Below are positions 4,148 to 24,505 of a DNA stretch of 38,881 bases, piece after piece; the stretch's first letter is position 1, and the number at the start of each line of letters is the position of its first letter. The position numbers were made by a program, and so were the translations under genes. Location of the stretch: assembly GCA_009380005.1 (NCBI GenBank), contig WHSQ01000020.1, forward strand, positions 9,846 to 48,726, read 5' to 3'. The notes beneath the pieces are model-generated. The model was not told the origin of the DNA and searched no databases. It was given only the letters and a program-made list of their open reading frames with translations. The DNA is from Actinomycetota bacterium (GTDB lineage Bacteria > Actinomycetota > CADDZG01 > WHSQ01).

Positions 4148-7100
4148 CTAGCTTCCTTCGTAGGAGTCGGTCACCAGGCGCTTCGTCGCGCGCACCCGGT
4201 TGAGGATCAGCAAGGCCGCTCCGGTGGCGAGCATCGAGACGCCGATCCATAGCCACCCGGCCATGCCGGAACCAGTGAACGGGAGGACCCTGCGGGGCAG
4301 GACCTCGGGCGGCGGGTTCTTCTTCTCACGATCGATGCGACGTGGCAGGACCTCCTCTTCCCAGTTGCCGAAGTCCACGCCCTCGACCGAGTCGCCCGAG
4401 CCGATCAGCACCGTCACGCCCTTCGTCCCGGCGCAGTCCGGGCCCGTGGCGGGGGCCGATTGCGTCCAATTCTCCTGCATGACCTCGCACACGATGTAGT
4501 GGCCCGGGAGCAGCTCGCCGAAGCTGTAGGAGCCGGCGGCGGCCGTCTCGGTCAGGTCCACCAAGGGTTCGCCGTCGTCGAGGAGCTGGTTCGCGTTCTC
4601 GTCGACGTAGAGCTCGATCTCCCAGCCGGCGAGACCCCCATCGTTGGCGTTGCGCTGACCGTTCGCGTTGAGGTCTTCCCACTTGGTGCCGGCGATGGCT
4701 CCGAGCTGGTAGTTGAGGAAGTCGAGGTCGTCGACGGTCTCGCCCGAGGACGGGGTCACCTCGTAGCACACCGTGGCCGGCGCGCTCTGGTGCCAGTCGG
4801 ACGGCAGGACCTCACACACCGTGTAGGTGGTGCCCGGCGTGAGGCCGGAGATGGTCCAGTCGCCGTCGGCGTCGGTCGTGGTCGAGACCTCGCCGTCGTC
4901 GAGCTCGCCGTTGTCGTTGCCGTCGAGGAAGATCGTCCAGCCCTCGAGCCCGGCGTCGTCGCCGTTCTCGGCGCCGTCGGCGTCGAGGTCGTGGATCTTG
5001 GTGCCCTCGAGCGTGGCGTTCCGGTAGTTGCCGAAGTTGTTGTTCGGGACCGAGTCGCCGGAGCCGAACGTATCTTCGTGATAACAACCGTGCTGGTCCG
5101 TGGTCGTCGGGTAGGAGCAGAACCAGCCCGCCTGAGCGACCTCACGGATCTTCCACGTCCCCGGGTTGACCCCGGTGATCTTGTACGAGCCCGGGTTGTC
5201 GCCACCGGTGCTCGTGTCCGCCGACGGTTCGCCGGCGTCCTTCGTGCCGTTGTCGTTGTAGTCGACGTAGATGGTGAAGGAGACGCTGGGAGCCGTCTCG
5301 GTCTCGTCCAGGACGCCATCGGCATCCATGTCTTCGAACTTCACGCCGGTCTTCTCGGCCGGCGTCCAGTTACCGAAGTTCCTGTCGGTAAGCGCCGTAC
5401 GCGACCCGATCGTCACGTCGTGATAGCAGGTGGTCGAGATCCCGATGAAGCCGAACAGGTCGGTGGTGCCGTCGGACGGGGACGAGCAGTACCAGGTGAG
5501 CCCGCCCGTAGGGATCACCTCGTAGACGCGGTAGGAGTCGTCGCGGGGACGGATACCGTCGATCTTGTAGTAGCCGGTCTCGTCGGTCACGGCCGATAGA
5601 TCGACGGTCTCGTCGAACTCGCCGTCATCGTCCACGTCGAGCCATATGACCCAGCCTTGCAGGCCGGGCTCGCCGTCGTCCCATTCGGTGTTGGCGTTCT
5701 CGTCGAGGAACTTGTAGCCCTCGACCGACCCGGGGGCCCAGTTGCCGAAGTCGTTGCCGGTGAGCTCGGCGTCGCCCGAGAGGAGGGTCACGGCGTAGCC
5801 GTTGCCGTCCGGGCAGCCGACCTCATTACCGGAGGCCGACGGATAGCTCTGGGTCCATCCCGACTTGAGCACCTCGCAGACGATGTAATCGCCGGGATCC
5901 AGGTCCGTGTAGCTGTAGGCGCCGGTCCCGGCGGCCGTCGTCTGGGGCGAGCTCGCGTGCTGCGGCTCGCCGTCGTCGAGGTTCCCGTTGCCGTTCGTGT
6001 CCACGTACAGGCGGATTTCCCAGGTGGGGAGCGGGTCGTCGGTGAGCGCGCGGGTACCGTCGGAGTTGTCGTCCTCCCACTTGATCCCGGACAACGAGAC
6101 CTTGTGGAAGTTGCCGAAGTCCTTGTTCTCCGCTGCGGCCGACCCGGAGAGCAGATCGTCGACCAACCAGCCCTTGGTCCCATCCGGGCAGGTCGGGCCG
6201 GACGACGGCGAGCTCTGATGCCAGGTGTTCTGCTGCGTCTCGCAGACGATGTAACTGCCGGGATCCAGGTCGGCGAAGGAGTAAGCCCCCGTCTCCACGG
6301 CGGTCGTCGTGGTCGCGACGGCCGGGGTCTCGCCGGCATCGATCACGCCGTTGTCGTTGGCGTCTCGGTACAGCTTGATCTGGAAACCACCGACACCCTC
6401 GTCGGTCCCGTCCTCGGTGCCGTCGGCGTCGTGGTCGTGGAACTTGTTGCCGGAGATGGACACCTTCTGGTAGTTGCCGAAGTCCTTGCCGGTCTCGCTC
6501 TCTCCGGAAGTGAGCTCGACGCCGTGTCCGGTCGACACCTGCCCACAATCCGCCCCCGAAGCGGGTGCGCTCTGCGTCCAGAGGTTCTGAGGCACCTCAC
6601 ACACGAGATAGGTCCCGGGCTCCAGGTTGTTGAACGCGTACGCACCGTTCGCGTTAGTGGTGGTGGACGTCTCGCCACCGTCGAGCGAACCGTTGCCGTT
6701 GGCGTCCAGGAAGATGACCCAGCCCTGGAGGCCGGGTTCTCCCGCTCCGTCATCGACGCCGTCGGCATCCCTGTCGTGGAACTTCTGGCCCGCGATCGAG
6801 CCCTTCTGATAGTTGCCGAAGCTGACCGATTCGCTGCTGTTGGCCGCGATCGCGATCGCTCCGCTGCACAACGACGTGCTGTTGAACCAATCCGACTTCA
6901 GCGTCTCGCAGACGTAGTAGGTGCCGGGGAGCAATCCGCCGAAGACGGCGTTACCGGAAGCGTCCGTCTGTTCGGTGGTGACGTTCGTGTCCTGGTCGCC
7001 ACCGGTGTTCTGGAGACCGCCGGTGCCGTTGGACTCCTCGTAGAGCGTCATCGTCCACGTCGCGAGGCCGGAGTCCCCGGTTCCCTTGACGCCGTCCGCG

Positions 7101-7900
7101 TTCAGGTCGTGGAACTTGTGCGCGGTGATCGTGCCGCAGGAGTTGACCGGGAAGGTGGTGGGCCTGATCACGTCCTGCAGGGTGGACACGAAGGAGGAGC
7201 CGGAGGAGCGGCTCTTCACGAAGACCTGGTTCGCGTTCACGCAGATCCCCAGGTTCTCGGACAGCAGCGCGGTGTTGATCACGAGCTCGCCGAACTCGCG
7301 GTCCTCGCTGATGTTCCCCTCGGCGATGTCGAGGGTGGTGAGCTCCACCTTGTCGTCCCAACAGGGAACGCTGGACGAGTTCGCCTCGCACTCGTCGTCG
7401 TCTCCGGAGGTGACCCATTCCGACAGGTAGATGGTCACCCCGCTGCTGGTGTTCCCGCCGAAGGCGTACTGCACCAGGAGATCGCCGGCCGTGCGAACCG
7501 GGGTGTCGTTCACAAGGATGGTCGACTGGTTGAACTCGAAGTCGACGTCGGCGCTCCCGGGGTCCTCGGTTCGCCGCCACGCCGCGTACAGGAAGGTCCC
7601 GTCGAACTTGAAGTACGCGTTCGTGAAGTCGGTCTTGTTCTTAGGGATCGAATCGGCCACGAAGGTGGGGTTCTCGTCGTCCTCCTTGGCGTTGTTCGTA
7701 TAGGTCGAGTCGTCGCTGGGGTCTCGCTGGATGGGATCGGTCGGGTTCGCGGTGGTGCCGAGGTCGAGGAACCCGTCGGATCCGTCGTAGGTCGATCCCG
7801 GGAGCGTCGCCGAAGCCAGCGGGAGCCCGCTGAAGATGACGAAGAACACGAGCAACGGCACGAACGTCAACCGCGATCCGCGGGCGCTGAACTTCTGCAT
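4148..7900 (-). CDS. Sortase-anchored surface protein with eight SdrD/CnaB-like prealbumin-fold repeats
   Basis: This is a predicted secreted, cell-wall-anchored protein of 1250 residues. Residues 1-31 are a signal peptide (MQKFSARGSR, hydrophobic core, ASA cleavage site). Residues about 35-255 form an N-terminal domain I cannot name, possibly a beta-sandwich binding domain. Eight repeats follow at about 256-364, 367-479, 480-600, 601-722, 723-846, 847-960, 961-1065 and 1066-1180. Most have a DxDADG-type loop near the start and a DxNxNGxxDxGE loop about 30 residues later, both Ca-binding-like. The C-terminus is LPFTG at 1206-1210, one membrane helix and the basic tail RVRATKR, a classical sorting signal. 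The ATG at 7900 follows AGAGGA. The adhesive or stalk role is inferred. No sortase gene is in the window. Confidence 0.9.
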   Translation of the reverse strand: MQKFSARGSRLTFVPLLVFFVIFSGLPLASATLPGSTYDGSDGFLDLGTTANPTDPIQRDPSDDSTYTNNAKEDDENPTFVADSIPKNKTDFTNAYFKFDGTFLYAAWRRTEDPGSADVDFEFNQSTILVNDTPVRTAGDLLVQYAFGGNTSSGVTIYLSEWVTSGDDDECEANSSSVPCWDDKVELTTLDIAEGNISEDREFGELVINTALLSENLGICVNANQVFVKSRSSGSSFVSTLQDVIRPTTFPVNSCGTITAHKFHDLNADGVKGTGDSGLATWTMTLYEESNGTGGLQNTGGDQDTNVTTEQTDASGNAVFGGLLPGTYYVCETLKSDWFNSTSLCSGAIAIAANSSESVSFGNYQKGSIAGQKFHDRDADGVDDGAGEPGLQGWVIFLDANGNGSLDGGETSTTTNANGAYAFNNLEPGTYLVCEVPQNLWTQSAPASGADCGQVSTGHGVELTSGESETGKDFGNYQKVSISGNKFHDHDADGTEDGTDEGVGGFQIKLYRDANDNGVIDAGETPAVATTTTAVETGAYSFADLDPGSYIVCETQQNTWHQSSPSSGPTCPDGTKGWLVDDLLSGSAAAENKDFGNFHKVSLSGIKWEDDNSDGTRALTDDPLPTWEIRLYVDTNGNGNLDDGEPQHASSPQTTAAGTGAYSYTDLDPGDYIVCEVLKSGWTQSYPSASGNEVGCPDGNGYAVTLLSGDAELTGNDFGNWAPGSVEGYKFLDENANTEWDDGEPGLQGWVIWLDVDDDGEFDETVDLSAVTDETGYYKIDGIRPRDDSYRVYEVIPTGGLTWYCSSPSDGTTDLFGFIGISTTCYHDVTIGSRTALTDRNFGNWTPAEKTGVKFEDMDADGVLDETETAPSVSFTIYVDYNDNGTKDAGEPSADTSTGGDNPGSYKITGVNPGTWKIREVAQAGWFCSYPTTTDQHGCYHEDTFGSGDSVPNNNFGNYRNATLEGTKIHDLDADGAENGDDAGLEGWTIFLDGNDNGELDDGEVSTTTDADGDWTISGLTPGTTYTVCEVLPSDWHQSAPATVCYEVTPSSGETVDDLDFLNYQLGAIAGTKWEDLNANGQRNANDGGLAGWEIELYVDENANQLLDDGEPLVDLTETAAAGSYSFGELLPGHYIVCEVMQENWTQSAPATGPDCAGTKGVTVLIGSGDSVEGVDFGNWEEEVLPRRIDREKKNPPPEVLPRRVLPFTGSGMAGWLWIGVSMLATGAALLILNRVRATKRLVTDSYEGS

Positions 7901-8166
7901 CGAAGTTTTCCTCTCGATCGTTGGCGATTCTTGGGGAGCGATCCAAGTGTGCGTCCCAGTCGACACGAAAGCTCCGTCAGATGAGTCCGCAACTTCGGCA
8001 ATATCGGGTACGCAGTTGAGGCAACTACGGCCGTCCCGCAGCGCGCGAAGGTCGAAACGCCTCTCTCGGCGCCCGGTTTGCCGCTGCTACGTATGCGAGT
8101 CGTTATTGTTTGGGGGATTCGTCATCGTTAGTGATCTTTGGGAGATCCGAGACCTAGGAGGGACAC
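7901..8166. other. Divergent intergenic region upstream of the surface protein and UPF0173 gene
   Basis: These 266 bases separate two divergent genes and must hold promoters for both. The only clear element is the AGGAGGG ribosome site at 8156-8162 before the hydrolase. On the reverse strand there is a long untranslated leader with GGCAAACC (about 8077-8084) and a later GGGACG, but the arrangement does not fit a known riboswitch. No tRNA-like fold or coding potential was seen. Confidence 0.4.
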
Positions 8167-20819: not shown

Positions 20820-21884
20820 ATGCGAACCGTGACCTTGATCCCCGGGGACGGCATCGGTCCCGAGGTGGCCGAGGCGACGCGACGAGTAGTCGATGCGACC
20901 GGGGTCGGGATCGAATGGGAGGTCCACGAGGCCGGACTGCCGGCGATCGAGCGCTACGCCGCGCCCCTGCCGCCCCACGTCCTGACCTCGATCCGCACCA
21001 ACAAGGTGGCGTTGAAGGGCCCCGTCACCACTCCGGTCGGGACGGGCTTCCGATCCATCAACGTCGCCCTCCGCCAGGAGCTCGATCTCTACGCCAGCGT
21101 GCGCCCGTGCGTGCTCTACCCGGGCGTGCCCTCTCGCTACGAGTCGATCGACCTGGTCGTGGTCCGAGAGAACACCGAAGATCTGTACGAAGGCATCGAG
21201 TTCGAGGAGGGCTCGCGGGAGGTCGAGAAGCTGAGGGGCTACGTGAAGTACATGCACGGGTTCGAGATCGCCAAGGACGCCGGCGTCTCCGTCAAGCCGA
21301 TCTCGATCTCGGCGACCGAAGCGATCGTGCGATTCGCGTTCGAGTTCGCCCTCCGGCGTCGCCGGCGCCGGGTGACGCTGGGCCACAAGGCCAACATCAT
21401 GAAGTTCTCGGACGGGGTCTGGCTCGAGAACGGCATCAAGATGGCCGATACGTACCGCTCCGTGGGTTTCGAGGAGATGCAGGTCGACGAGCTCGCCATG
21501 TGGCTCGCTCACGCGCCCGAAGAGCTAGACGTCATCGTGCTCCCCAACCTCTACGGCGACATCATCTCCGACCTCTGCGCGGGCCTGATCGGGGGGTTGG
21601 GCCTGGCCCCCGGCATGAACCTCGGCAAGGAATACGCGGTCTTCGAACCGACCCATGGTTCCGCGCCGGACATCGCAGGTCAAGGCAGGGCGAATCCGAT
21701 AGCGATGATCCTCTCCGCGGTTCTGATGCTGAGACATCTGGACCGGCCGGCCGAGGCCAACTCCATCGAGCAGGGGGTCGCCCGCGTCCTGGCGGAAGGC
21801 CGGGTTCGTCCCGCAGATCTTTCCCCCGAAGGCCGATCGTCTTCGACCACGGAGATCGCCGAAGCGATCATCGAGACCCTGTGA
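20820..21884 (+). CDS. NAD-type isocitrate dehydrogenase (isocitrate/isopropylmalate family)
   Basis: This is a 354-residue beta-decarboxylating dehydrogenase. It shows IPGDGIGPEV, the substrate loop GTGFRSINVALRQ (S79), ASVRPCVLYPGVPSRY, VVRENTEDLYEGIEFE, the metal-binding NLYGDIISDLCAG and FEPTHGSAPDIAGQG. The combination of the ALKGPVTTPVG and SINVALRQELDLYA segments fits the NAD-dependent isocitrate dehydrogenase branch better than LeuB. Homoisocitrate or tartrate dehydrogenases are less likely alternatives. The role would be oxidation of isocitrate to 2-oxoglutarate in the TCA cycle. Its stop overlaps the GTG of the following GNAT gene. Confidence 0.88.
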   Translation: MRTVTLIPGDGIGPEVAEATRRVVDATGVGIEWEVHEAGLPAIERYAAPLPPHVLTSIRTNKVALKGPVTTPVGTGFRSINVALRQELDLYASVRPCVLYPGVPSRYESIDLVVVRENTEDLYEGIEFEEGSREVEKLRGYVKYMHGFEIAKDAGVSVKPISISATEAIVRFAFEFALRRRRRRVTLGHKANIMKFSDGVWLENGIKMADTYRSVGFEEMQVDELAMWLAHAPEELDVIVLPNLYGDIISDLCAGLIGGLGLAPGMNLGKEYAVFEPTHGSAPDIAGQGRANPIAMILSAVLMLRHLDRPAEANSIEQGVARVLAEGRVRPADLSPEGRSSSTTEIAEAIIETL

Positions 21885-22690
21885 CGGACGAGCCCTCGTT
21901 CGCGCGGGCCCAGCGCTTCGAACGGCGGATACGGCGAGATGTAGCTGCTCGTATGGAGCGCTTCGAGTGGGGGACGGCCTATTTCGATCCGAACCACCCC
22001 TTGGTGTGGGACCTGAACTTCCTCGAGGTCGAGGCGGTGGATGCTCAGGTGACGGCCGACGATCTCGTAGCGGTCGCCGATCGGATACAAGGCGCCGTCG
22101 GGCTGGGCCATCGCAGGATCGTGGTCGATGACGACACGGTGGCGGAATCGCTCGCGCCTCGTTTCCGCGAACTGGACTGGATGGTTAACAAGTTCCTGTT
22201 CATGGAGCTGAAGCGCGCGGCGGAACGCCCTCCGCGGGTGCGCAGGGCGCGGGAGATCGACCGTGACAACCACCGAGACGTCTACGTACGTACGACTTCC
22301 GAGGCCCCGTACGGGGGCGTTCCCGATGTCGTGAGACAGCTCGCGGATCATACGGACGGCATCGCGGCAAGGACCGGCGTGCGGTACTTCGGCGCGATCG
22401 ACGATGACGGAACCCTCGCTTCGATCTGCGTGATGTTCTCGGACGGGGAGATAGCACAGATCGAAGACGTCGCGACCCTGAAGGACTACCGCGGCCGCGG
22501 TCTCGCCACCGAGTTGCTCGGCCTGGCGATATCCGAAGCCAAGGAGGCGGCGCACGATCTGATCTTCCTGGTGGCCGACGAGGAGGACTGGCCGAAGGAC
22601 CTCTACGGCAAGCTCGGGTTCGAACCGATGGGCCTGAGTTACGACTTCGTCCTTCCGGGCGACGTCGTCTACGGCAACGAGAACCACTGA
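21881..22690 (+). CDS. GNAT family acetyltransferase
   Basis: This 269-residue protein has a C-terminal GNAT fold (about 130-265) with the acetyl-CoA loop YRGRGLATELL and the late LYGKLGFEPMG segment typical of the family. The N-terminal half (about 1-125) may be a second, degenerate GNAT-like domain; it includes HPLVWDLNFLEVEAVDA. The GTG start overlaps the dehydrogenase stop (GTGA), so translation is coupled. The frame stays open far upstream in the antisense of other genes, so the long upstream extension is not used. The substrate is unknown. Confidence 0.88.
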   Translation: MTDEPSFARAQRFERRIRRDVAARMERFEWGTAYFDPNHPLVWDLNFLEVEAVDAQVTADDLVAVADRIQGAVGLGHRRIVVDDDTVAESLAPRFRELDWMVNKFLFMELKRAAERPPRVRRAREIDRDNHRDVYVRTTSEAPYGGVPDVVRQLADHTDGIAARTGVRYFGAIDDDGTLASICVMFSDGEIAQIEDVATLKDYRGRGLATELLGLAISEAKEAAHDLIFLVADEEDWPKDLYGKLGFEPMGLSYDFVLPGDVVYGNENH

Positions 22691-22723
22691 CGACGGAGGG
22701 CCCATGCGTGCGAAGATGGTCCC

Positions 22724-22798
22724 ATGAGCACAACCGCTGGGAGCCTGGTCGATACGTTCGGGCGGGTGGCGACCGACCTGCGCGTGATCGGAGGCTGA
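22724..22798 (+). pseudogene. moaA: Internally deleted moaA remnant (24 codons), coupled to moaE
   Basis: The reading frame encodes 24 residues, MSTTAGSLVDTFGRVATDLR followed by VIGG and stop. The segment LVDTFGRVATDLRV is the typical N-terminus of MoaA, the radical-SAM GTP 3',8-cyclase of molybdopterin synthesis, just before the Cys motif. IGG-stop matches the conserved Gly-Gly end of MoaA. All of the Fe-S and catalytic domain is missing, so this looks like a precise internal deletion. The retained end carries GGAGG and overlaps the moaE start (TGATG). A 7-codon ORF (22704-22727) with GGAGGG ahead of it overlaps the remnant start as ATGA. The remnant cannot be an enzyme; it may survive as a translation leader for moaE. 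Confidence 0.65.
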
Positions 22799-23220
22799 TG
22801 ATCCACGCGGCCATCGCCACCGAGCGATTGAACGTGGCGGATCTGATCGGCAAGGGGCACGATCCAAGTTGCGGAGGCATAGGCGCATTCATCGGGACCG
22901 TGCGCTCTCATGCATCGACCGGCGACCGAGACGATGTCGTCGCGTTGGAGTACGAGGCACATCCCGTGATGGCGGAGGCGAAACTGTTGGAGATCGCGGA
23001 CGAAGCGGTGACGAGATGGGACCTGGTTCGCCTGGTGGCGGTGCACAGAACGGGGATCTGCGCGTTGGGCGAGCCGACCGTCGTTGTGGTGTGTAGCTCT
23101 CCGCACCGAGGTGAAGCGCTGGACGCTACCCGGTGGATCATCGACGGCATCAAGGACACGGTGCCGATCTGGAAGAAAGAGATATTCGCCGACGGTGCCG
23201 CGTGGGTGGGGTCGAACTGA
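22798..23220 (+). CDS. moaE: Molybdopterin synthase catalytic subunit MoaE
   Basis: MoaE, with the thiocarboxylated MoaD, converts precursor Z to molybdopterin. The 140-residue protein has the family core IGAFIGTVRSHASTGD, ALEYEAHPVMAEAKL, AVHRTG and the catalytic stretch IKDTVPIWKKE. K119 and K126 fall at the same numbers as the catalytic Lys residues of the E. coli protein. The ATG overlaps the stop of the moaA remnant (TGATG), with GGAGG 5 bases upstream. No moaD, moaC or complete moaA is in the window. Confidence 0.95.
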   Translation: MIHAAIATERLNVADLIGKGHDPSCGGIGAFIGTVRSHASTGDRDDVVALEYEAHPVMAEAKLLEIADEAVTRWDLVRLVAVHRTGICALGEPTVVVVCSSPHRGEALDATRWIIDGIKDTVPIWKKEIFADGAAWVGSN

Positions 23221-24011
23221 TGGAGCTTGGACTCGAAGGCAAGGTCGCATGGGTTACCGGCGCGTCGGCGGGTCTGGGCCGCGCCGCGGCTAGATCACTC
23301 TCTGCCGAAGGGGCGACGGTCGCCATCTCGGCGCGCGGCGAGGAGGCGCTGCGGACCACCGCCGAAGAGATCAGCGCGGCCACCGGCTCGACGTGCAAGG
23401 CCTTCCCTCTCGATGTCGGCGACGGCGACGCCATCCGGACCACGGCCACGGCGATCAGGGACGAGTTCGGCCCCCTGGACGTGGTACTGGTCAACTCGGG
23501 CGGGCCGCCTCCCGGGACCTTCGAGACGCTCTCCGACGAGGATCTGGACCGCGGCCTGGCGACCAGCACGCGGGCTGCATGGACGATGACGCGGGTAGCG
23601 CTCGAGGACATGGCCGAGCGCGGAGGCTGTCTCCTCTACATCGTCTCGTGGTCGGCGAAGGAAGTGATCCCGGGGCTGCTGCTATCGAACATGTTGCGGC
23701 CATCGGTCGTGGGTTTCGCCAAGACCATCTCCAAGGAATACGGGGGCCGGGGGATCCGCACGGTTTGCATCGCTCCGGGCCGCATCGAGACGGACCGGTT
23801 GAAGGAGCTCGACCGCATCAGCTCGGAGAAGTCGGGACGTTCCGTGGAGGAGGTTCGGGCCGCCGCGCACGAGACGATCCCCCTCGGACGGTACGGACGC
23901 CCCGAGGAGATCGGAGACACGATCGCCTTCCTCGCCTCGGATCGCGCCTCGTACCTAACGGGCACGACCGTCCTCGTCGACGGGGGTTTGCTCGACGGCT
24001 TGCTGTCGTGA
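23220..24011 (+). CDS. SDR-family protein with replaced catalytic Tyr and Lys
   Basis: This 263-residue protein has an SDR Rossmann fold ([13 protein letters not shown], 12-24) but altered active-site motifs. NNAG is replaced by NSGG (92-95, in VNSGGPPPG), and where YxxxK is expected the sequence is [12 protein letters not shown], giving S156 and R160. S143 (IVSWSAKE) is kept. This pattern is seen in a recognisable SDR subgroup, so it is not a simple mutation, but ordinary SDR proton relay is not possible. The start ATG overlaps the moaE stop by one base, and the stop overlaps the mogA/moaB GTG, so it belongs to the same operon. A link to molybdopterin metabolism is suggested only by position. 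Confidence 0.85.
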
Positions 24012-24505
24012 AGGCCCAGCACCTCGCTTTCGTCCTGACGGTCAGCGACGGCGTGGCCCACGGCACCAGGACCGACGAGAGCGGCGCCGCGGCGGAGGCG
24101 ATCCTCCTGGAAGCGGGCTTCGTCGTCGAACGAGGCCGCGTCCCGGACGAGCCGGCCGACATCACCGAGGCGCTGCGAAAACAGATCCGGAAGGACACCG
24201 AGCTCGTCATCACGACCGGCGGGACGGGCCTGGCCCCCCGGGACGTCACGCCCGAGGCCACCGCCCGGGTGATCGAGCGCGCCGCCCCCGGGATAGCGGA
24301 GATGATCCGGGCGAGCAGCTTCGAGAGGACGCCGCACGCGGCGCTCTCGAGAGGCGTGGCCGGGACGACCGGGCGGACCCTAATCGTGAATCTGCCCGGC
24401 AGCCCCGGGGCCGTGCGCGAAGGGCTCGACACGCTTCTGCCCCTCCTCCCTCACGCCCTGGATCTCGTGGCCGGGCGCACGCACCACGATGCGTCGCAGG
24501 GGTGA
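24008..24505 (+). CDS. Molybdopterin adenylyltransferase-like protein (MogA/MoaB family)
   Basis: This 165-residue protein of the MogA/MoaB fold adenylates molybdopterin before molybdenum insertion. The start [19 protein letters not shown] matches the family. The core motif [17 protein letters not shown] and the late [13 protein letters not shown] are intact. The GTG start (24008) overlaps the SDR stop in GTGA. MogA and MoaB cannot be separated here by eye. It ends the moaA remnant-moaE-SDR-mogA/moaB operon. Confidence 0.93.

Follow-up and report, generated by a model that had tools for sequence, protein, structure and literature searches.

Pseudogenes formed by internal deletion of one of two redundant paralogues are a known kind of gene remnant, in which both ends of the deleted copy are kept and the paralogue stays intact elsewhere. 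A second kind of short frame is provided by the coupled leaderless small ORFs of mycobacteria, which range from 5 to 50 codons, overlap the following gene as RTGA and sometimes encode an unconserved peptide sequence (Shell et al. 2015, PMC4633059). In the window, by which we mean the whole stretch of 38,881 nucleotides analysed here (all coordinates refer to it, and features lie on the plus strand unless stated otherwise), a stub of 24 codons directly ahead of moaE resembles both. It has kept two ends of a gene with an intact paralogue, but differs from ordinary internal-deletion pseudogenes in that its frame and its junction to the next gene are open and overlapping. Like the mycobacterial ORFs (PMC4633059), it is short, has a probable leaderless start and ends on the start of the next gene; it differs from them in being known from sequence alone and in having an origin, very probably a deleted gene, that can still be read. 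The locus is ordinary as a case of gene loss, and of moderate interest as the readable origin of what may be a coupled small ORF.

In our sample of 16 genomes of the family, in which the genus is represented by this one genome only, MoaA falls into two types that the tree separates by a long branch with 100% support, type 1 ending in ...MSYIGG (one in ...MSVIGG) and type 2 in ...SMSMIGG. The stub (22724..22798; translation MSTTAGSLVDTFGRVATDLRVIGG-stop) opens with the MoaA-like N-terminus LVDTFGRVATDLRV, residues 1-21 corresponding to the start of the type-2 protein and the last three (IGG) to its end. A profile built on residues 1-33 of five intact MoaAs of type 2, all from relatives in the same bacterial family, ranked it second, at E 1.6e-5, among 9,753 stop-to-stop frames from 398 kb of the genome, the first being the true MoaA and the best unrelated frame after the stub reaching only E 0.25; the joining of a MoaA N-terminus to IGG-stop, which the first-pass annotation had described, is thus real. 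Scored on the N-terminal profiles of the two types, the stub gave 23.5 bits (E 1.9e-5) for type 2 and 11.0 bits (E 0.12) for type 1. Type-1 moaA, tried as the source of the stub, was rejected on this N-terminal misfit.

The IGG-stop, too short as proof when taken alone, belongs to an uncommon class, since just two of the 58 short frames that terminate where a gene begins have GG as their last residues. Across 396 genomes, the combined pattern of a MoaA N-terminus followed within 30 nt by GG-stop hit the stub and one clearly unrelated place, the reversed-pattern control matched nothing, and a search of the other 395 genomes did not find the exact stub. One might also think of moaD, which often precedes moaE and ends in ...PPVSGG, and indeed an ...SGG-stop frame stands ahead of many bacterial moaE genes; nevertheless, it is highly improbable that the GG-stop here is a moaD remnant, as the stub residues read IGG, the DNA matches the end of the type-2 gene (moaA2) and the N-terminus is that of MoaA. 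Compared with GTP 3',8-cyclase MoaA (TIGR02666), the stub retains the first 21 and last three residues, the place directly ahead of moaE and the stop/start junction, and what it retains at its N-terminus is, on the type-2 profile, the sequence that precedes the cluster motif; the whole catalytic core with both cysteine clusters is gone, the CxxxCxxC radical-SAM motif present in all intact MoaAs listed being absent from its 24 residues, and it is not an enzyme.

The comparison with relatives reveals what stood here. Full-length type-2 moaA lies immediately 5' of moaE in four genomes (G003, G004, G006 and G009), and in G004 the gene order ICD-GNAT-moaA2-moaE-SDR-mogA is that of the window, differing in the length of moaA. 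In the window, this order comprises the isocitrate/isopropylmalate dehydrogenase family gene (ICD, 20820..21884), the GNAT-family acetyltransferase (21881..22690) and, beyond the stub and moaE, the SDR oxidoreductase (23220..24011), these three recognized as conserved neighbours by synteny, followed by a mogA/moaB-like molybdenum cofactor gene (24008..24505; molyb_syn domain at 119.7 bits, over the cut-off). moaE itself (22798..23220), encoding the molybdopterin synthase large subunit of 140 aa, is identified by NCBIfam MoaE with an E value of 1.7e-23, a match below the curated cut-off, and by family orthologues at the same place. At its N-terminus the stub shares 13 of 14 residues with G004 and 12 of 14 with G009, and its C-side DNA, ATCGGAGGCTGATG, is one base off that of G004 and G006 (ATCGGCGGCTGATG). 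From the DNA of both ends aligned to G003, G004, G005, G006 and G009, the deletion junction (...CTGCGCGTG / ATCGGAGGCTGA) can be placed approximately, not base-exactly, at 22786..22787; relative to intact type-2 MoaA, about 308-309 codons (~924-927 bp) are missing, in frame, between ...DLRV and IGG. For a gene remnant one expects relatives to carry, at that place, a full-length orthologue collinear with it at both ends, and this is what we found with G004 and others. The clean internal deletion that the first-pass annotation had offered as one of its two readings is therefore well supported by the alignment to genomes with full moaA-moaE that it proposed as a check, and because G004 has a full-length moaA2 in the very place of the stub, we take the stub ORF, with high confidence, to be an internal-deletion remnant of type-2 moaA. 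Most likely the loss is recent. A gene tree of ICD, GNAT, MoaE and SDR gave no resolution as to whether the loss goes back to an ancestor common to the window's genome and G002, and a scan of genome contigs with a MoaE alignment returned, among the matches listed, mostly distant bacteria.

Would a full moaA2 still exist in the genome, its ends having been wrongly joined in this contig by an assembly error or through a mixture of strains? The draft is fragmented (639 contigs), which would suit such an artefact. Against it, the two ends have in relatives no long repeat in common on which a collapse could occur, and the rest of the genome yielded no piece of a type-2 core, so that a collapse is unlikely; the joined frame, too, is intact. 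We accordingly regard this explanation as improbable.

The first-pass annotation had also suggested searching the rest of the genome for a complete moaA. One was found, of type 1, on contig C155 (4277-5272; 387 bits, above the curated cut-off), where it adjoins a mobA-like gene, and moaC lies on contig C299. Because of this complete type-1 gene, loss of the type-2 copy probably spares the pathway and would cost the cell little. G009 retains both types of moaA, as a genome would be expected to before losing one of them. The two glycines that end MoaA are important for catalysis, and ...IGG terminates the intact MoaAs of the family, which lends some appeal to a functional peptide whose C-terminal ...IGG would act in trans on MoaA, or which would have another selected role. 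Such a function seems to us very doubtful, given that the intact type-1 MoaA already ends in ...SYIGG itself and that conservation of the stub peptide cannot be shown from one genome; a literature search on the C-terminal glycines of MoaA yielded no usable source.

If the peptide does not matter, the frame itself may. Counted over 304 genes predicted in this genome, TANNNT occurs 18 times at -12 of the start, six times at -13 and 0-3 times at nearly all other positions, while NANNNT occurs 34 times at -12 against about 9; leaderless starts are therefore common in this genome. Ahead of the stub, the probable -10 element GAAGAT (22712..22717) occupies -12 to -7 of the ATG, the spacing of a leaderless start. 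Taken by itself, this single site has about even odds of being a true -10, because the G at -12 is a non-consensus base. GANNAT likewise precedes the moaA2 start at -12 in G003 and G004 and at -13 in G006 and G009, as well as the start of a mini-ORF at -13 in G002. The stub ATG is accordingly a candidate transcript start at the level of sequence, with GAAGAT at the right spacing and a -10 common to relatives.

The 7-codon ORF MRAKMVP (22704..22727) does overlap the start of the stub, by ATGA, as had been noted at first; the chain of coupled starts built on this overlap is not supported, as the ORF is unseen in relatives and covers the probable -10 element. We judged it a chance ORF and rejected it as a link of a coupling chain.

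At the other end of the stub, the stop TGA (22796-22798) shares one base with the moaE ATG (22798-22800), giving TGATG, and GGAGG (22790..22794), a possible Shine-Dalgarno sequence of moaE, lies inside the IGG codons, which read GGA GGC in the stub versus GGC GGC or GGT GGC in relatives. Both elements had been put forward in the first-pass annotation and both are present; the account needs correction in that the spacing between GGAGG and the ATG is short, at 3 nt, and that the overlap differs from the RTGA of the coupled leaderless small ORFs, although it may work alike. RNA folding of 22724-22850 was unremarkable (z -0.32).

Two readings of this junction have to be weighed. According to the first, the stub is a plain decaying pseudogene: the same deletion happened recently and had no selective effect, the frame survived by luck, at odds of one in three, and translation of moaE relies on its own GGAGG regardless of any translation of the stub. 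The observation of the stub in one genome only and its near-identity to intact N-termini, which fits a recent event, are in accord with this, as is the occurrence in the family of moaE without an upstream moaA, for example in G005, G008, G012 and G015, where [GT]ANNAT is found at -12/-13 of the moaE start itself. The window's moaE start, on the contrary, has no such motif at -12/-13, so that the transcript of moaE probably still begins at the stub, and the kept frame, the stop/start overlap and the GGA codon that creates GGAGG weakly favour some use. Simple decay is thus a tentative reading, to be taken seriously. That the type-2 moaA remnant is at the same time a leaderless ORF coupled to moaE has, in our estimation, an even chance of being correct, and a leader peptide that selection has fixed because moaE expression needs it, the other reading originally offered, is plausible in view of the leaderless -10 spacing, the kept frame and the overlap, seen in a single genome. 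A loose scan of the genome for small ORFs with such a -10 that end at gene starts gave 14 against about 11 expected, no clear excess.

The comparison with relatives indicates that a redundant second moaA, of type 2, once stood directly ahead of moaE and that a single internal deletion, in frame and about 924-927 bp long, took the whole radical-SAM core. What had been its promoter and start codon stayed in place on one side, and its stop with the junction to moaE on the other. The transcript probably starts at or next to the stub ATG; should the coupled reading hold, ribosomes would begin there without a leader, read the 24 codons as far as TGA and then, assisted by GGAGG, initiate again on the moaE ATG that overlaps this stop. 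The stub peptide itself would most likely be functionless, the enzyme being supplied by the intact type-1 MoaA on contig C155. The stub lets one follow, base by base, the deletion of a leading gene whose start and stop persist as a small ORF, and, if the coupling is real, it suggests, in a form open to testing, where coupled leaderless small ORFs, often unconserved in sequence, may come from. As a general route, we would speculate, with little confidence, that when a redundant leading gene is deleted from an operon that relies on initiation at a leaderless start codon and on coupled re-initiation, selection keeps a minimal in-frame ORF, and that such fossils account for some of the many coupled small ORFs of Actinomycetota that lack conservation.

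Several further observations deserve mention. In G002 (L066), from another genus, a 13-codon frame, MRETPVPLSMSGG-stop, lies between GNAT and moaE; no moaA was found in this 95% complete assembly, and moaC and moaE are present. The frame may perhaps be a second, shorter moaA2 remnant, its DNA match to the moaA2 ends being not significant and equalled elsewhere in the same 8 kb, and the end of moaD (...PPVSGG) fitting it nearly as well. G003, which has an intact moaA2 beside moaE, also carries at C2 (L064; 76904-77029, minus strand), apart from that gene, a degraded piece of a MoaA N-terminus, LVDSLGRQARDLRISMTDRCDFSCRY, which then runs out of register. A fragmented, pseudogene-like frame of 48 residues resembling moaA (E 9.7e-6) stands beside moaE on the minus strand of a Flavobacteriaceae assembly (L147). 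A nucleotide-sugar-type oxidoreductase gene lies on the opposite strand ahead of moaA in G003, G006, G007 and G009 (L065, L067, L070 and L074); neither the window nor G002 has it there, and the 137-base gap at this place in G004 is mostly masked. Finally, the minus strand of the window bears at 4148-7966 an ORF of 1272 residues with many ...GxKxHDxDADG... repeats and a C-terminus of hydrophobic character, reminiscent of surface proteins rich in repeats.
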